DNA from: Natranaeroarchaeum aerophilus | Lineage (GTDB): Archaea; Halobacteriota; Halobacteria; Halobacteriales; Natronoarchaeaceae | Assembly (NCBI RefSeq): GCF_023638055.1 | Contig: NZ_JAKRVY010000001.1 | Coordinates: forward strand, 62,001-126,000 | Reading direction: 5' to 3' | DNA: 64,000 nucleotides | In this document: piece after piece, positions 59,049 to 64,000 of the stretch | Layout of the letters: each line of letters opens with the position of its first letter | Position numbering within the stretch: the first letter of the stretch is position 1 | Program-made: the position numbers and the translations under genes | The notes under the pieces: generated by a model | Seen by the model: the letters and a program-made list of their open reading frames with translations, nothing else | What the model was told of the DNA's origin: nothing | Databases searched by the model: none

Positions 59049-59921
59049 GTGACCCGAACCTACTCACAGGAGCGTTATCTCGCGGCGAAACGGACGATCG
59101 ACGACCGGTCACTGAACCGGACCGTCCTCGACGAACTGGCGCCGATACTTGCGGATGCGTCCGACGTCGTCGAGATCGGCGCTGGGATCGGAACGATGTG
59201 CCAGCGCCTCCTCGACTGGGAGCTGTTACCCAACCAGTTGACGTACACGTTGGTCGATGTCGATGGGGATTCGATCGCTGCCGCGAAAGAACGGCTCTCC
59301 GACTGGGCGGCGTCGGAAGGCTATACTGTCACCCAGGACAGCGGGATTACCCTCCGCCGCGACGAGCAGGAAGTCAGGATCGAGACGGCGGTGGTGGACG
59401 CCGCCGACTATCTTGCGACCGAGACACCGGATCTGGTTATCGGATCGGCGTTTCTCGACCTGCTCGACTCCGCGGAGGTCGACGAGCTATTCGACCGTCT
59501 CCCAGCGGGCTGTCACTGTTATTTTCCGATCACCTTCGACGGCGGGACGACGTTCCAGCCGACTGTCTTCCCGGCGTTCGACGATCATGTCGTCGAGCGA
59601 TACCACGAGGATATGATCCGCCGCGAGAACCCGGGAGATCCACACGCTGGCCGACACTTGCTTTCACGTGCGGCGAGCGATCACACGTTGATCGCCGCAG
59701 GGGCATCCGACTGGGTCGTCGCTCCCGGCGAAAACGGATACCAGGCAGATGAGGCGTATTTCCTGCATCACATTGTCGATACGGTGGCCGCGGCTCTCGC
59801 GGATGATCCGGCAGTCGACGGCGACCGGCTGGCGCGCTGGGACGATCACCGACACGAGCAGATCCTTCGCGACGAACTCGTCTACGTCGCTCACCAGCTA
59901 GACGTCTTGCTCACCGTCTGA
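59049..59921 (+). CDS. SAM-dependent methyltransferase-like protein of the pterin/glycosyl cluster
   Basis: 290 residues from GTG 59049. A Rossmann-type motif I (VVEIGAGIGTMCQRLLDW) and post-I acidic VDVDGDSIAAAKERL identify a class I methyltransferase fold. The C-terminal half (FPITFDGGTTFQP...FDDHVVERYHEDMIRR) contains tyrosines and histidines as in small-molecule methyltransferases. Its last 24 bp overlap the end of the glycosyltransferase gene on the other strand, so the two converge. Substrate unknown; context suggests it acts with the operon at 59898-63389. Confidence 0.78.
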   Translation: MTRTYSQERYLAAKRTIDDRSLNRTVLDELAPILADASDVVEIGAGIGTMCQRLLDWELLPNQLTYTLVDVDGDSIAAAKERLSDWAASEGYTVTQDSGITLRRDEQEVRIETAVVDAADYLATETPDLVIGSAFLDLLDSAEVDELFDRLPAGCHCYFPITFDGGTTFQPTVFPAFDDHVVERYHEDMIRRENPGDPHAGRHLLSRAASDHTLIAAGASDWVVAPGENGYQADEAYFLHHIVDTVAAALADDPAVDGDRLARWDDHRHEQILRDELVYVAHQLDVLLTV

Positions 59922-61004
59922 TTGCTTCCCGAGAAACGCCCGAATATCGCTCATCGATTCGCCCCACGTCGGATGCTGTCTCGCTGTCACGAGCGCACGT
60001 TCGCCCATCCGGGCAAGTCTCCCGCGCTGGTCGTCGAGTGCCTGCAAGTGTGCTGCGATCCCACCCTCGTCACCCGGCTCGACCACGAACCCGTTGTGGC
60101 CATGCTCGACGAACTCGCCTGCGCCGCCGACGCTCCCGGCAATCGGGACGACACCGTACTCCATGGCTTCCAGATAGACCATACCGAACGCCTCGTAGCG
60201 CGAGGGGACACAGCAGACGTGGCTCCGTTCGAGAATGGCCTCCAGCTCGGGTGTGTCGATTGCTCCGGTGAACGCCACCCGATCGTCGATTCCGTACTCA
60301 GTGGCAGCCGTGACGACCGATGGGGCGTAGTCGGGCTCAGCGTCGTGGCTCCCGACGACGGTCAGCTCCCAGTCCCGTTCCGGGTGACCGCGCGCGATGG
60401 CGGCCAGAAGCGTTTTTGGGTCCTTGCGGGGAACCACGTTCCCGACGTAGACGACACGGAGCGGCCCGGTTGTCGCTCGTTTCCTGACACGCTCCAGCGT
60501 GACCGCAGCCCCTTCGGTTCGCCCGGCCGGGGGCGCAACGAGAGTGGGCTTTCGGTCCAGTCCGGACGTCAGCTCGCACGCACGGGTCCGGGTGAACTGG
60601 CTCGTACTGATCGCAGCGTCGACTGATTCGAGATATCGCCGCTCGAACGGCCGAAACATCCGACCGAACCGTTCGGTCGGATCGTCCGATCGAAGGTGGT
60701 GGATGAGCGTGACGATCGCCCCTGGCTTCTCAAGTTGTCCGTTCTGTCGCCACAGGGACGGATGACAGAGACCGTCCTGGACGAGCACGTCGACTGGCCG
60801 GTCGAGTTTCGCCCGGATCGACGGGGTGACGCCGTCGAGGAGTCCACGCGGATACGAGCGCCACGGAAGCGAGATCACGTCGACGGTATCGCCCTGGTCC
60901 CGGAGATACGAGACGAGCTGTCGGTCGTACCGAAAGCCGCCAGAAGTCGCCCCCAGATCACCGTAGATCACCAGCCCGACGTGCATCGACGTGTCAGTGC
61001 TCAC
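59898..61004 (-). CDS. Glycosyltransferase family 4 (GT-B fold)
   Basis: 368 residues from GTG 61004; ATG 60986 is an alternative. The N-terminal domain includes GDLGATSGGFRYDRQLVSYLRDQGD. The C-terminal domain has VVYVGNVVPRKDPKTLLAAIARG (nucleotide-sugar binding) and the EX7E-type donor site CVPSRYEAFGMVYLEAMEYGVVPIAGSVGGAGE. It transfers a sugar from a nucleotide donor to an unknown acceptor. Last gene of the operon starting at 63389; 8 bp after the pterin-synthase-like gene. Confidence 0.88.
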   Translation of the reverse strand: MSTDTSMHVGLVIYGDLGATSGGFRYDRQLVSYLRDQGDTVDVISLPWRSYPRGLLDGVTPSIRAKLDRPVDVLVQDGLCHPSLWRQNGQLEKPGAIVTLIHHLRSDDPTERFGRMFRPFERRYLESVDAAISTSQFTRTRACELTSGLDRKPTLVAPPAGRTEGAAVTLERVRKRATTGPLRVVYVGNVVPRKDPKTLLAAIARGHPERDWELTVVGSHDAEPDYAPSVVTAATEYGIDDRVAFTGAIDTPELEAILERSHVCCVPSRYEAFGMVYLEAMEYGVVPIAGSVGGAGEFVEHGHNGFVVEPGDEGGIAAHLQALDDQRGRLARMGERALVTARQHPTWGESMSDIRAFLGKQSDGEQDV

Positions 61005-61012
61005 GCTCGTAC

Positions 61013-61390
61013 TCAGAGCGTTCGCTCGTGAGTGACGGTCGCGATATCGTCTTCCTGCAAGGCTACCTCGAGGCGCGTCGCCGTCTCGGGCTGCAGCCGT
61101 GCGAGCAGGCTATCGCCGAAGATCCGGGCGAAGTGTTCGGCGCTCGGATTTCGCCCCTCGAACGCGGGTAGTTCGTTGAGTGTCTCGTCGCTAAACTCAG
61201 CTACTGTCGCCTCCAGAGCCTCGATGACGGCGTCGATATCGACGAGGTAGCCGTACTCGTTTAGCTCCGGCCCCTCGAACGTCACCTCCACGGTGAAGTG
61301 ATGCGAATGGAGAGTTCCTTCCGGTCCGGGGTCGGGAACCGTCAGCCAGTGCTGGGCGACGAACGAGCGAGTGACGGAGACAGTGTACAT
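61013..61390 (-). CDS. 6-pyruvoyl-tetrahydropterin synthase/QueD-like protein without the usual catalytic Cys
   Basis: 125 residues from ATG 61390. The zinc triad is present: H14 (SFVAQHWL) and H28/H30 (TLHSHHFTVEV), and the C-terminal substrate glutamate in NPSAEHFARIF. The catalytic cysteine that normally precedes the HGH motif is absent (PDPGPEGTLHSHHF). It may therefore catalyse a different aldol or lyase step on a pterin-like or sugar substrate, or be a binding protein. No queC, queE or folE is nearby, which argues against queuosine/archaeosine synthesis as its main role. Confidence 0.82.
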   Translation of the reverse strand: MYTVSVTRSFVAQHWLTVPDPGPEGTLHSHHFTVEVTFEGPELNEYGYLVDIDAVIEALEATVAEFSDETLNELPAFEGRNPSAEHFARIFGDSLLARLQPETATRLEVALQEDDIATVTHERTL

Positions 61391-61448: not shown

Positions 61449-62248
<800 letters not shown>

Positions 62249-62252
<4 letters not shown>

Positions 62253-63028
62253 ACTGCCTCCACTCCGTCGATGTCCTGCAGATCAGGATGGCCACTATAC
62301 TCCTCGACAACGGCAACTTGGCCCCGTTCTCGGACTCGGTCCCGGACCCGTTGCCACTCCCGATGGCGACGCTGGACCACCACTGGCACTAGCTCTACGG
62401 CCAGCAGTTTCGCAATGGCGAGCCGATGCTGTCCGTAGGCTCGCCAGTAGATCGTCCCGTCCCGTCCGATATCGACGTTGATCTCGTCGGCCCGCAATCC
62501 CACTGTTTTCCCCTTATCTTGCAGTTCCGCTTGTTCCCGGTAACCGTCCCGCTGAATCGATTCGTACAGTTGCTCGATCTCCTGACAGCGCCGATCGAAG
62601 TCCGCGATTGTGGTGTACTCCCAGGCGTTACCGAACCGCTCTAGTTGGTCGACATACGCGTCGTACAGCGCCGTGTCCTCCCACGCTTTTCCCTCGTCGA
62701 ACCGCTGTTCAAGTCCGCGCGGGACTCGACGGTCGTCAAACGGCTCCGACCGTTCGTCCCAGTCCCCGTCCACGACACGCCCCCACTGTGGTCGGTTCGG
62801 TGCGGTCTCAAGCAGGCTCCGCTCGATCCGTTCTGGAGCGATCCGCAGCACGGCGAGCGGATCGGCGTCGGTGTACCGCTGTGGCCTGACGCGCCGTCGT
62901 AGCCGGTGCCACTGACGCAGCGCAGAGAGCGGGATACGTCGGCGGATCGGGGTCGCCACACTGTGGCGAATCGCGACGACGATACGCCCGCGCAGTCGCT
63001 TACCGCGGGAGATGGGTTCACGTCTCAC
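62249..63028 (-). CDS. ParB/Srx-like fold protein of unknown function
   Basis: 259 residues from GTG 63028. A very basic N-terminus (RREPISRGKRLRGR...RLRRRVRPQ) precedes an acidic middle. The last 120 residues (EINVDIGRDGTIYWRAYGQHRLAIAKLLAVELVPVVVQRRHREWQ) resemble the ParB/sulfiredoxin-like domains seen in glycan and surface-polymer clusters rather than DNA partition proteins. No helix-turn-helix is obvious. Overlaps both neighbours (11 bp upstream, 4 bp downstream), so it is co-translated with a membrane protein and the CDP-alcohol enzyme. Confidence 0.6.
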
Positions 63029-63389
63029 GTTGGTAGAGTACGATCAACACGCCGATCAGGACTACCTGTGCGACCTTGTCGACGATGTCTGCCGTCCCGA
63101 GCGCCGCCAGACTGTCGGGCTGGACCACCTGGTACCAGGCGATGATCTGTACCAGGGTAAACGGGATCCCGACGAGGTAAACGAGCGTCCGCCGGTAATC
63201 GATCAACACCAGCACGATAGCGCCGACGAACCCACCTGTGGCGAGGAGAAAGAGCACGCCCATGTAGTGTGGTAAAAAGCCGATTCCCAGCACGAGATGC
63301 ACGAGCGCACTCACGAGCGCCATCGTGATACCGAGCCAGTGCAACGGCGTCAACGAGTCGAGCGCGAACGTCCGGTCCGTGGTACTCAT
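63018..63389 (-). CDS. Small four-helix membrane protein, first gene of the cluster operon
   Basis: 123 residues from ATG 63389. Four membrane helices (about 17-36, 42-62, 67-88, 100-120) with short loops; LTPLHWLGITMALVSALVHLVLGIGFLPHYMGVLF starts the hydrophobic core. Similar small membrane proteins are widespread in haloarchaea without a known function. A TATA-like gaatatatcc lies at 63447-63456, giving a leader of about 35 nt. It leads the operon through the glycosyltransferase. Confidence 0.7.
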   Translation of the reverse strand: MSTTDRTFALDSLTPLHWLGITMALVSALVHLVLGIGFLPHYMGVLFLLATGGFVGAIVLVLIDYRRTLVYLVGIPFTLVQIIAWYQVVQPDSLAALGTADIVDKVAQVVLIGVLIVLYQRET

Positions 63390-63466: not shown

Positions 63467-64000
63467 TCACGCTATCGCATCGTCCGTACGCTCGAACGTT
63501 ACGTCCTCTAGCAGTTCGCGGAGCCGCCGTTCGCCCCCCTCCGGATCGTATCCTTCCTGTCTAAGATGGGCAATCGGAGCGACGTTCGGATTCAACTCCC
63601 AGTGACACCACACGTCGGTTTTTCCATCGGGGGTCGGGAACAGTCTCACGTGTAGCTGCCAGCGCCCAAACCTCCCACCGGGACGGTACGAGCAACTGGC
63701 GACCTCGTACAGCACCGTCCCCTCGCGCTCGTATGCGTGGAGATACGCCCGGATCATCTGGTTGAACCCGTGCTCCTCGACCAGCCGATCACGCGCGGTT
63801 TCGGGTGGGACGCTCCAGACGCCGACGTACTCGCTTTCCGGTGGGGGGAGGACCCGGAACGGCTTCGGAACGAGCCAGCCGGGGAACCGCCGCGAGAGGC
63901 GCGCCCCGTGTAGGCGCACCTGCCAGAAGGAGACGTAGGTGAGGGTGGCCCACGCGAGAATGCCGCCGAGCACGGAGAGCCCTGCGCGTGCAAGCAGGGA
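63467..64000 (-). CDS. Conserved protein with N-terminal membrane segment (start probably beyond window)
   Basis: The frame is open to the right edge (nine extra codons, SLLARAGLS, precede the GTG at 63973), so the true start is probably just outside. It begins with one membrane helix (GLSVLGGILAWATLTYVSFW), then a globular part with EYVGVWSVPPETARDRLVEEHGFNQMIRAYLHAYEREGTVLYEVASCSYRPGGRFGRWQLHVRLFPTPDGKTDVWCHWELNPNVAP. This looks like a beta-grasp or START-like soluble domain exposed to one side of the membrane. No known family recognised; ends AIA at 63467. Confidence 0.65.
   Translation of the reverse strand, partial: SLLARAGLSVLGGILAWATLTYVSFWQVRLHGARLSRRFPGWLVPKPFRVLPPPESEYVGVWSVPPETARDRLVEEHGFNQMIRAYLHAYEREGTVLYEVASCSYRPGGRFGRWQLHVRLFPTPDGKTDVWCHWELNPNVAPIAHLRQEGYDPEGGERRLRELLEDVTFERTDDAIA

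Follow-up and report, generated by a model that had tools for sequence, protein, structure and literature searches.

Three subfamilies of COG0720, the 6-pyruvoyl-tetrahydropterin synthase (PTPS) family, are the closest described systems for the protein reported here. QueD/PTPS-I is a T-fold protein with three zinc-binding His residues and an anchoring Glu, and we take its catalytic triad to be Cys27, Asp70 and His71. PTPS-III, the Plasmodium and bacterial type that cleaves dihydroneopterin, combines a zinc site with a Glu in the region of the Cys. PTPS-IV, which includes SCO6650 (PDB 3d7j), is a named subfamily with unsettled function, and SCO6650 reportedly showed no PTPS activity when it was studied. 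Phillips, in 2012, is said to have treated the subfamilies of COG0720 and to have defined PTPS-V and PTPS-VI. Charged pterins of haloarchaea, phosphohalopterin and sulfohalopterin, were reportedly described by Lin and White in the 1980s, and we know of no biosynthetic genes for halopterins. The signatures are given as CxxxHGH for QueD/PTPS-I and ExxHGH for PTPS-III (PMC5041015) and as FGPAQ for PTPS-IV (PMC5445326); the former source states from unpublished work that PTPS-IV is involved in F420 synthesis, and the latter names GTP cyclohydrolase (GCH) II and RibD_C as PTPS-IV neighbours, with the GCH II Pfam family labelled FolE2.

Here we analyse a PTPS-like gene of Natranaeroarchaeum aerophilus and its surroundings in a window of 64,000 nucleotides, by which we mean the whole stretch of DNA analysed (contig NZ_JAKRVY010000001.1, positions 62,001 to 126,000). 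Like QueD, the encoded protein has a T-fold, three predicted zinc His and an anchor Glu; unlike QueD, it lacks Cys27, Asp70 and His71, scores below the QueD family cut-off and has no archaeosine gene among the neighbours scanned.

Active-site residues, fold and phylogeny

The gene and the codons of its putative active site are located as follows.

61013..61390, minus strand: PTPS-like T-fold protein, 125 aa, open reading frame with ATG at 61390 (Pfam PTPS)
61349-61351, minus strand: H14, predicted zinc His
61307-61309, minus strand: H28, predicted zinc His
61301-61303, minus strand: H30, predicted zinc His
61319-61321, minus strand: Glu24, aligned with the QueD Cys27 position
61187-61189, minus strand: Asp68, aligned with the QueD His71 position
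61052-61054, minus strand: anchor Glu113, from the alignment

Membership of the PTPS/T-fold family is indicated by both profile and fold, the Pfam PTPS (PF01242) score being 81 bits where 22.4 is the cut-off. The start at 61390 is backed by an N-terminal MY that is kept in relatives, and the plus strand at 61013-61390 carries stops in the frame read. The protein falls below the curated NCBIfam cut-offs for QueD (42 versus 89.25 bits) and for the 6PTHBS subfamily (30.7 versus 125.5 bits). Relatives were found at 34 loci in the genome_contigs set, at 51-90% identity; nearly all are haloarchaeal by title, and one is bacterial (Longimonas halophila). Within the order to which the window belongs, more than half of the sampled genomes (81/142) carry a strong match to the family profile, with any match in 83, no strong match in 61, and a match in 69 of the 118 genomes of good quality.

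Residues were mapped on an alignment (A1) with E. coli QueD and others in which 26 rows represent the family, one for the window protein and the rest for 25 of the 34 loci; the trees use the same 26 rows. The QueD zinc ligands H16, H31 and H33 correspond to H14, H28 and H30, and the QueD anchor E110 to E113, in all 26 rows. Cys27 is replaced by Glu24 in 26/26, Asp70 by Arg in 19 and by Ser in four (S67 in the window protein), and His71 by Asp68 in 25, while H14, E24, H28, S29, H30 and E113 are invariant. The nine remaining loci, outside A1, also read ExxxHSH, which is thus present in 35/35 sequences including the window gene itself. A preliminary description, made from the letters of the window, had reported that the zinc-site residues H14, H28 and H30 and the C-terminal Glu are kept, that the catalytic Cys is missing and that HSH stands in place of HGH. 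The alignment bears out all three observations, with no Cys anywhere in the protein, and as judged from it the whole Cys-Asp-His triad is replaced, beyond the missing Cys. Given a conserved family at 34 loci with shared residues, this motif pattern is not due to chance.

None of the signatures of PTPS-I to PTPS-IV is present. Where QueD has CxxxHGH and its triad, the window protein has E24, S67, D68 and HSH; it has no Cys that could form the CxxxxxHGH of PTPS-II; its ExxxHSH is one residue longer than the ExxHGH of PTPS-III; and it reads PGPEG at the FGPAQ of PTPS-IV, where all ten PTPS-IV rows (including SCO6650) read FG(P/S)AQxxHGA. These ten rows have Ala (10) at the Cys27 position, Asn (7) at Asp70, Tyr (10) at His71 and, in 10/10, Ala for the third zinc His. 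The PTPS-IV rows have AxxxHGA, with the third zinc His and the Glu lost and a Tyr at the position of Asp68, whereas the window family has ExxxHSH, three zinc His and the Glu/Asp pair, and because of these losses the two may differ in chemistry.

An AlphaFold2 model of the window protein (pLDDT 93.8) has SCO6650 as its best PDB match (3d7j; TM 0.85, E 3.8e-9), followed by QueD, and the family profile scores SCO6650 at 67 bits, E. coli QueD at 40-41, mammalian PTPS at ∼19 and Plasmodium PTPS at 14-16.5. PTPS-IV is thus the nearest solved structure and sequence, and it also forms the neighbouring clade. In maximum-likelihood trees, which were midpoint-rooted, carry a long-branch warning and had PTPS-II, PTPS-III (including prokaryotic), PTPS-V and PTPS-VI outside their sampling, the ExxxHSH rows form one clade (support 99/99, and 100/96 after adding two archaeal rows) and PTPS-IV its own (97/95 and 100/99). 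The two split jointly from Cys-type PTPS with 100/97 and 99/96, the Cys-type rows tested being 13 and the 99/96 side also taking in archaeal ExxxHGH rows. Three such rows (L163-L165) stand beside the ExxxHSH clade with support of 92/75, which is not firm; L166 and L167, from the same L161-L167 set, are Cys-type.

The trees thus support a position of the ExxxHSH clade next to bacterial PTPS-IV and apart from the Cys-type rows, and it looks like a new variant beside that subfamily. Clustering with a known Cys-less aldolase, named in the preliminary description as the outcome contrary to its proposal of a new reaction, was not seen in these trees and profile scores. The proposal itself stands in part. 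Difference from PTPS-I, PTPS-II and PTPS-III is supported by the replaced triad, by separation from the 13 Cys-type rows and by the gene linkage described below (GCH III in 32/81 genomes), but the family is not isolated, having PTPS-IV as its neighbour. Our search of the open-licence literature found no description of an archaeal ExxxHSH clade. It may already be named in the 2012 work of Phillips, and could equal PTPS-V.

Gene neighbourhood and GTP cyclohydrolases

The genes around the PTPS-like gene, including two beyond the end of the window, are listed below (window coordinate = L066 + 57999).

59049..59921, plus strand, convergent: class I SAM methyltransferase (Methyltransf_12, below the curated cut-off)
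59898..61004, minus strand: GT4-type glycosyltransferase (Pfam Glycos_transf_1), directly downstream of the PTPS-like gene
61485..62252, minus strand: CDP-alcohol phosphatidyltransferase family protein (Pfam CDP-OH_P_transf), directly upstream of the PTPS-like gene
62249..63028, minus strand: hypothetical protein, 259 aa, no Pfam match, overlapping the CDP-alcohol gene
63018..63389, minus strand: DUF7475 membrane protein (Pfam DUF7475)
63467..64000, running on to 64024 past the window end, minus strand: hypothetical protein, 185 aa
64025-65071 in window numbering (L066:6026-7072), minus strand: MDR dehydrogenase, beyond the window end
65011-65952 in window numbering (L066:7012-7953), minus strand: GTP cyclohydrolase III, longest open reading frame, beyond the window end

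The CDP-alcohol protein retains an intact DGxxAR...G...D...D stretch, presumably the motif of CDP-alcohol phosphatidyltransferases. Conservation of the neighbourhood was surveyed within 6 kb at 41 loci (34 from genome_contigs, that of the window's own genome and six on haloarchaeal plasmids), using profiles built from clusters of the same loci that were then searched. An MDR dehydrogenase was found at 35 loci, a methyltransferase at 33, a CDP-alcohol gene at 22 and DUF7475 at 21. GT4 was counted at 30, with strong same-strand matches at 26 and weak ones on the opposite strand at the other four, and GCH III at 13, two of them low-scoring (98 and 38 bits). The MDR gene is absent within this radius at L034, L035, L036, L040 and L048, and also at L038, which meets a contig end; a strong same-strand GT4 is absent at 15 of the 41 loci, partly owing to short contigs.

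The 94-base gap between the CDP-alcohol and PTPS-like genes contains a palindrome-bearing stretch of 23 bases (61462-61484, minus strand). When up to two mismatches are allowed, the genome holds six copies of it and none of the reversed pattern. The same junction in a genome of the same genus (G023) measures 46 bases and is without the stretch, which looks like the end of a small mobile element.

The preliminary description had noted that archaeosine and folate genes are absent nearby, and had seen the setting as glycan-type. The first point agrees with the neighbours scanned but is misleading, since the apparent lack of pathway genes is an effect of the window edge: the dehydrogenase and GCH III lie just past base 64000. 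As for the second, a glycosyltransferase is indeed present, but it would be one step of a GTP-derived small-molecule cluster and is missing at some loci.

The GCH III gene of this cluster lies on the same strand, 1-2 kb past the end of the window, and a second GCH III copy is found elsewhere in the genome. Among the 81 genomes with a strong match (a count that leaves out the weak G025 and G099 and a partial second copy in G119), 32 have a GCH III within 8 kb of the PTPS-like gene, always on the same strand, 22 times upstream and 10 times downstream, where chance would give ∼0.5% per copy. Two GCH III genes occur in 13 genomes (14 if a 19.6-bit match in G084 is counted); 12 of the 13 have the PTPS-like gene, and one GCH III copy lies near it in all 12. 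In 20 of the 32 genomes with a nearby GCH III that gene is the sole copy found, and it probably also serves riboflavin synthesis; deletion of arfA in H. volcanii causes riboflavin auxotrophy (PMC8305020).

In archaea outside the order but of the same phylum (L161, L162) and in Longimonas (L063), the place next to the dehydrogenase that GCH III takes in many haloarchaea is taken by GCH II. At L161 (L161:1915-3720) GCH II and MDR share one open frame of 602 residues, followed by the PTPS homologue and GT4. The order at L162 is GCH II, MDR, PTPS, GT4 and, farther along, a creatininase-family gene; at L063 a GCH II-RibD_C fusion precedes MDR, PTPS and methyltransferase. RibD_C was seen near ExxxHSH genes at L063 only, with none among the haloarchaeal neighbours scanned. 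At L163-L165 MDR adjoins the PTPS homologue (L163 also has GT4), and no cyclohydrolase was seen in the open reading frame lists and few proteins scanned from these stretches. According to PMC9478397, GCH III yields a formylamino-pyrimidine nucleotide and GCH II the deformylated one. The use of two Pfam families for the one opening step speaks for a GTP-derived pyrimidine as the starting material of the pathway.

Two more specific ideas gained no support. In the first, the zinc site would persist as a deformylase for the GCH III product, which retains its formyl group, whereas the GCH II partners of PTPS-IV take that group off themselves; this is not favoured, as L063, L161 and L162 keep HSH together with GCH II. 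GCH II of the FAPy type is marked by a Tyr-to-Met change, and the Tyr of the K-x-(R/K)-(A/S)-Y stretch, which we take to be the decisive one, is kept in the five GCH II sequences inspected, from Palleronia, Longimonas, Peteryoungia, L161 and L162.

PTPS-IV clusters in bacteria

Nine bacterial plasmid loci with PTPS-IV were opened, out of a larger number found, and six of them (L107, L108, L109, L111, L114 and L115) carry a cluster similar to the haloarchaeal one, in which MDR is followed by PTPS, methyltransferase and RibD. GT4 lies between PTPS and methyltransferase in five of the six and ∼4 kb away in the sixth. GCH II, rather than the GCH III found near haloarchaeal ExxxHSH genes, is annotated in four of these clusters, a CDP-alcohol phosphotransferase in five, a flippase or LPG-synthase transmembrane protein in four and a cytochrome b in four, the last confirmed as b561 in one cluster; the L108 genes were checked against Pfam. 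Two Streptomyces PTPS-IV loci have no such cluster, and one further PTPS-IV record is unannotated. When genes of the Peteryoungia cluster were matched to the N. aerophilus genome, the best match of its MDR was the MDR of the window cluster (173 versus 19 bits) and that of its GT4 was the GT4 of the window cluster (81 versus 36 bits). The archaeal-bacterial methyltransferase match is weak, with E values of 0.002-0.03 for Thiodictyon and none at E 1 for the others.

A proposed pathway and its alternatives

We consider it reasonably likely that the window protein is a zinc T-fold enzyme, standing beside PTPS-IV, of a dedicated pathway that leads from GTP through a pyrimidine to a decorated pterin-type product, and that it works with zinc, Glu and Asp. 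This reading draws on the residue map (E24, the zinc His and E113 in 26/26 rows, D68 in 25/26), on the supported clade and its split from Cys-type PTPS, and on a high-confidence fold nearest to SCO6650. Glu in place of Cys has a catalytic precedent, since the PDB titles for P. vivax PTPS name Glu37 as the catalytic residue ('E37A/E37C catalytic residue mutant'). It draws further on the linkage to GCH III (32/81 genomes, and 12 of the 13 with two copies), on the recurrence of MDR (35/41), methyltransferase (33/41) and strong same-strand GT4 (26/41), on GCH II in the place of GCH III at L161, L162 and L063, and on the bacterial PTPS-IV clusters with the Peteryoungia MDR and GT4 matches. Counting against it, GCH III is near in only 32/81 genomes and is the sole copy in 20, six of the 41 loci lack MDR and 15 a strong same-strand GT4, the two Streptomyces loci are clusterless, two of the six bacterial clusters show no GCH II, and the methyltransferase match between domains is weak.

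The proposed pathway would begin with the opening of GTP to a pyrimidine ribotide of the formamido or diamino type, a step that would fall to GCH III in haloarchaea and to GCH II in bacteria and other archaea. The PTPS homologue would take this pyrimidine intermediate, or a pterin made from it, as substrate and bind the 2-amino-4-oxo ring through Glu113, while a Zn(His)3 site with Glu24 and Asp68 would replace Cys/Asp/His in an isomerisation, a C-C cleavage or a ring closure. The MDR dehydrogenase and methyltransferase, joined at many loci by GT4 and the CDP-alcohol phosphotransferase, would finish a pterin-type product, which is probably methylated, in many cases also glycosylated, and perhaps tied to the membrane. 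The cluster, common to haloarchaea and some bacteria, probably builds a GTP-derived, sugar-decorated small molecule. With two GTP-opening families beside the same dehydrogenase in two domains, it points to an undescribed GTP-derived metabolite and offers a testable gene set for it, and the family would show how a zinc-centred T-fold active site can change from Cys/Asp/His to Glu/Asp. The cluster could also supply genes for the modified pterins that were reportedly found in haloarchaea decades ago, phosphohalopterin and sulfohalopterin being a candidate product class; no sequence link to them exists, and neither these names nor halopterin were found in the open-licence literature.

In a bolder form of this pathway, which we rate as rather unlikely, the work of GTP cyclohydrolase I would be split between two enzymes. 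The GTP ring would be opened by GCH II or GCH III, and the T-fold protein would carry out the Amadori rearrangement and ring closure, so that a dihydropterin arises with no need for GTP cyclohydrolase I itself. From this dihydropterin, the dehydrogenase, methyltransferase, glycosyltransferase and CDP-alcohol phosphotransferase would make a membrane- or sugar-linked pterin cofactor common to haloarchaea and some bacteria.

Two readings that dispense with such an enzyme step or with such a pathway are each unlikely. The protein might be a non-catalytic pterin-binding or structural component of the pathway, given that all of its triad is gone, that PTPS-IV is short of a zinc ligand too, and that SCO6650, as noted above, reportedly lacks PTPS activity. 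However, across 26 rows whose identity to the window protein falls as low as 50%, there is little or no variation at the zinc ligands, Glu24 and Asp68, which suggests a working site. The protein might instead act in folate synthesis as a dihydroneopterin aldolase that resembles PTPS-III and has a catalytic Glu, for which the Glu in place of Cys and the P. vivax precedent speak. Here the signature differs (ExxHGH for PTPS-III in PMC5041015, ExxxHSH in the family), the profile favours SCO6650 over Plasmodium PTPS by 67 bits to 14-16.5 (with prokaryotic PTPS-III outside the tree), no folate gene was seen among the neighbours scanned, and 61 of the 142 genomes of the order have no strong match.

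A role in F420 synthesis, as stated for PTPS-IV from unpublished work in PMC5041015, is improbable, even though the early steps from GTP to a pyrimidine would be common to both routes. The plasmid loci opened have no cof gene annotated nearby, and the glycosyltransferase and phosphotransferase have no obvious fit. CofH-model matches occur in 140/142 genomes regardless of the PTPS-like gene, a weak test in that all of them stay under the curated cut-off and E. coli matches too.

The window gene is the only PF01242 match in its own genome, where QueC is strong (G000:C13:42900-43529) and the PF01242 search found no Cys-type QueD; the assembly is 98.08% complete in 32 contigs, and this absence may stem from a gap in the assembly or from a route to preQ0 that does without queD. 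Although the single PF01242 match, the strong QueC and the annotation of eight relatives in haloarchaeal plasmid records as 6-carboxytetrahydropterin synthase would suit a QueD of the archaeosine/preQ0 pathway, that identity is very improbable: all three triad residues are replaced and the score is far under the QueD cut-off, genome G023 of the same genus has an ExxxHSH gene and a separate CxxxHGH gene, and no queC or queE was seen among the neighbours scanned. By motif and score the window protein is not QueD, and the residues of the plasmid relatives contradict their annotation.

Two PTPS-family copies in separate pieces were also noted. On the Haloarcula marismortui plasmid pHMA411 (L110:7900-8330) the gene lies in two pieces, unannotated, in both deposited records, with a frame change near the HSH motif in the one record read; its annotated surroundings include MDR, GT4 and a creatininase-family gene. 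A second PTPS-family copy in genome G119 (G119:C1:179639-180006) is likewise matched in two separate pieces, and an intact copy lies elsewhere in that genome.
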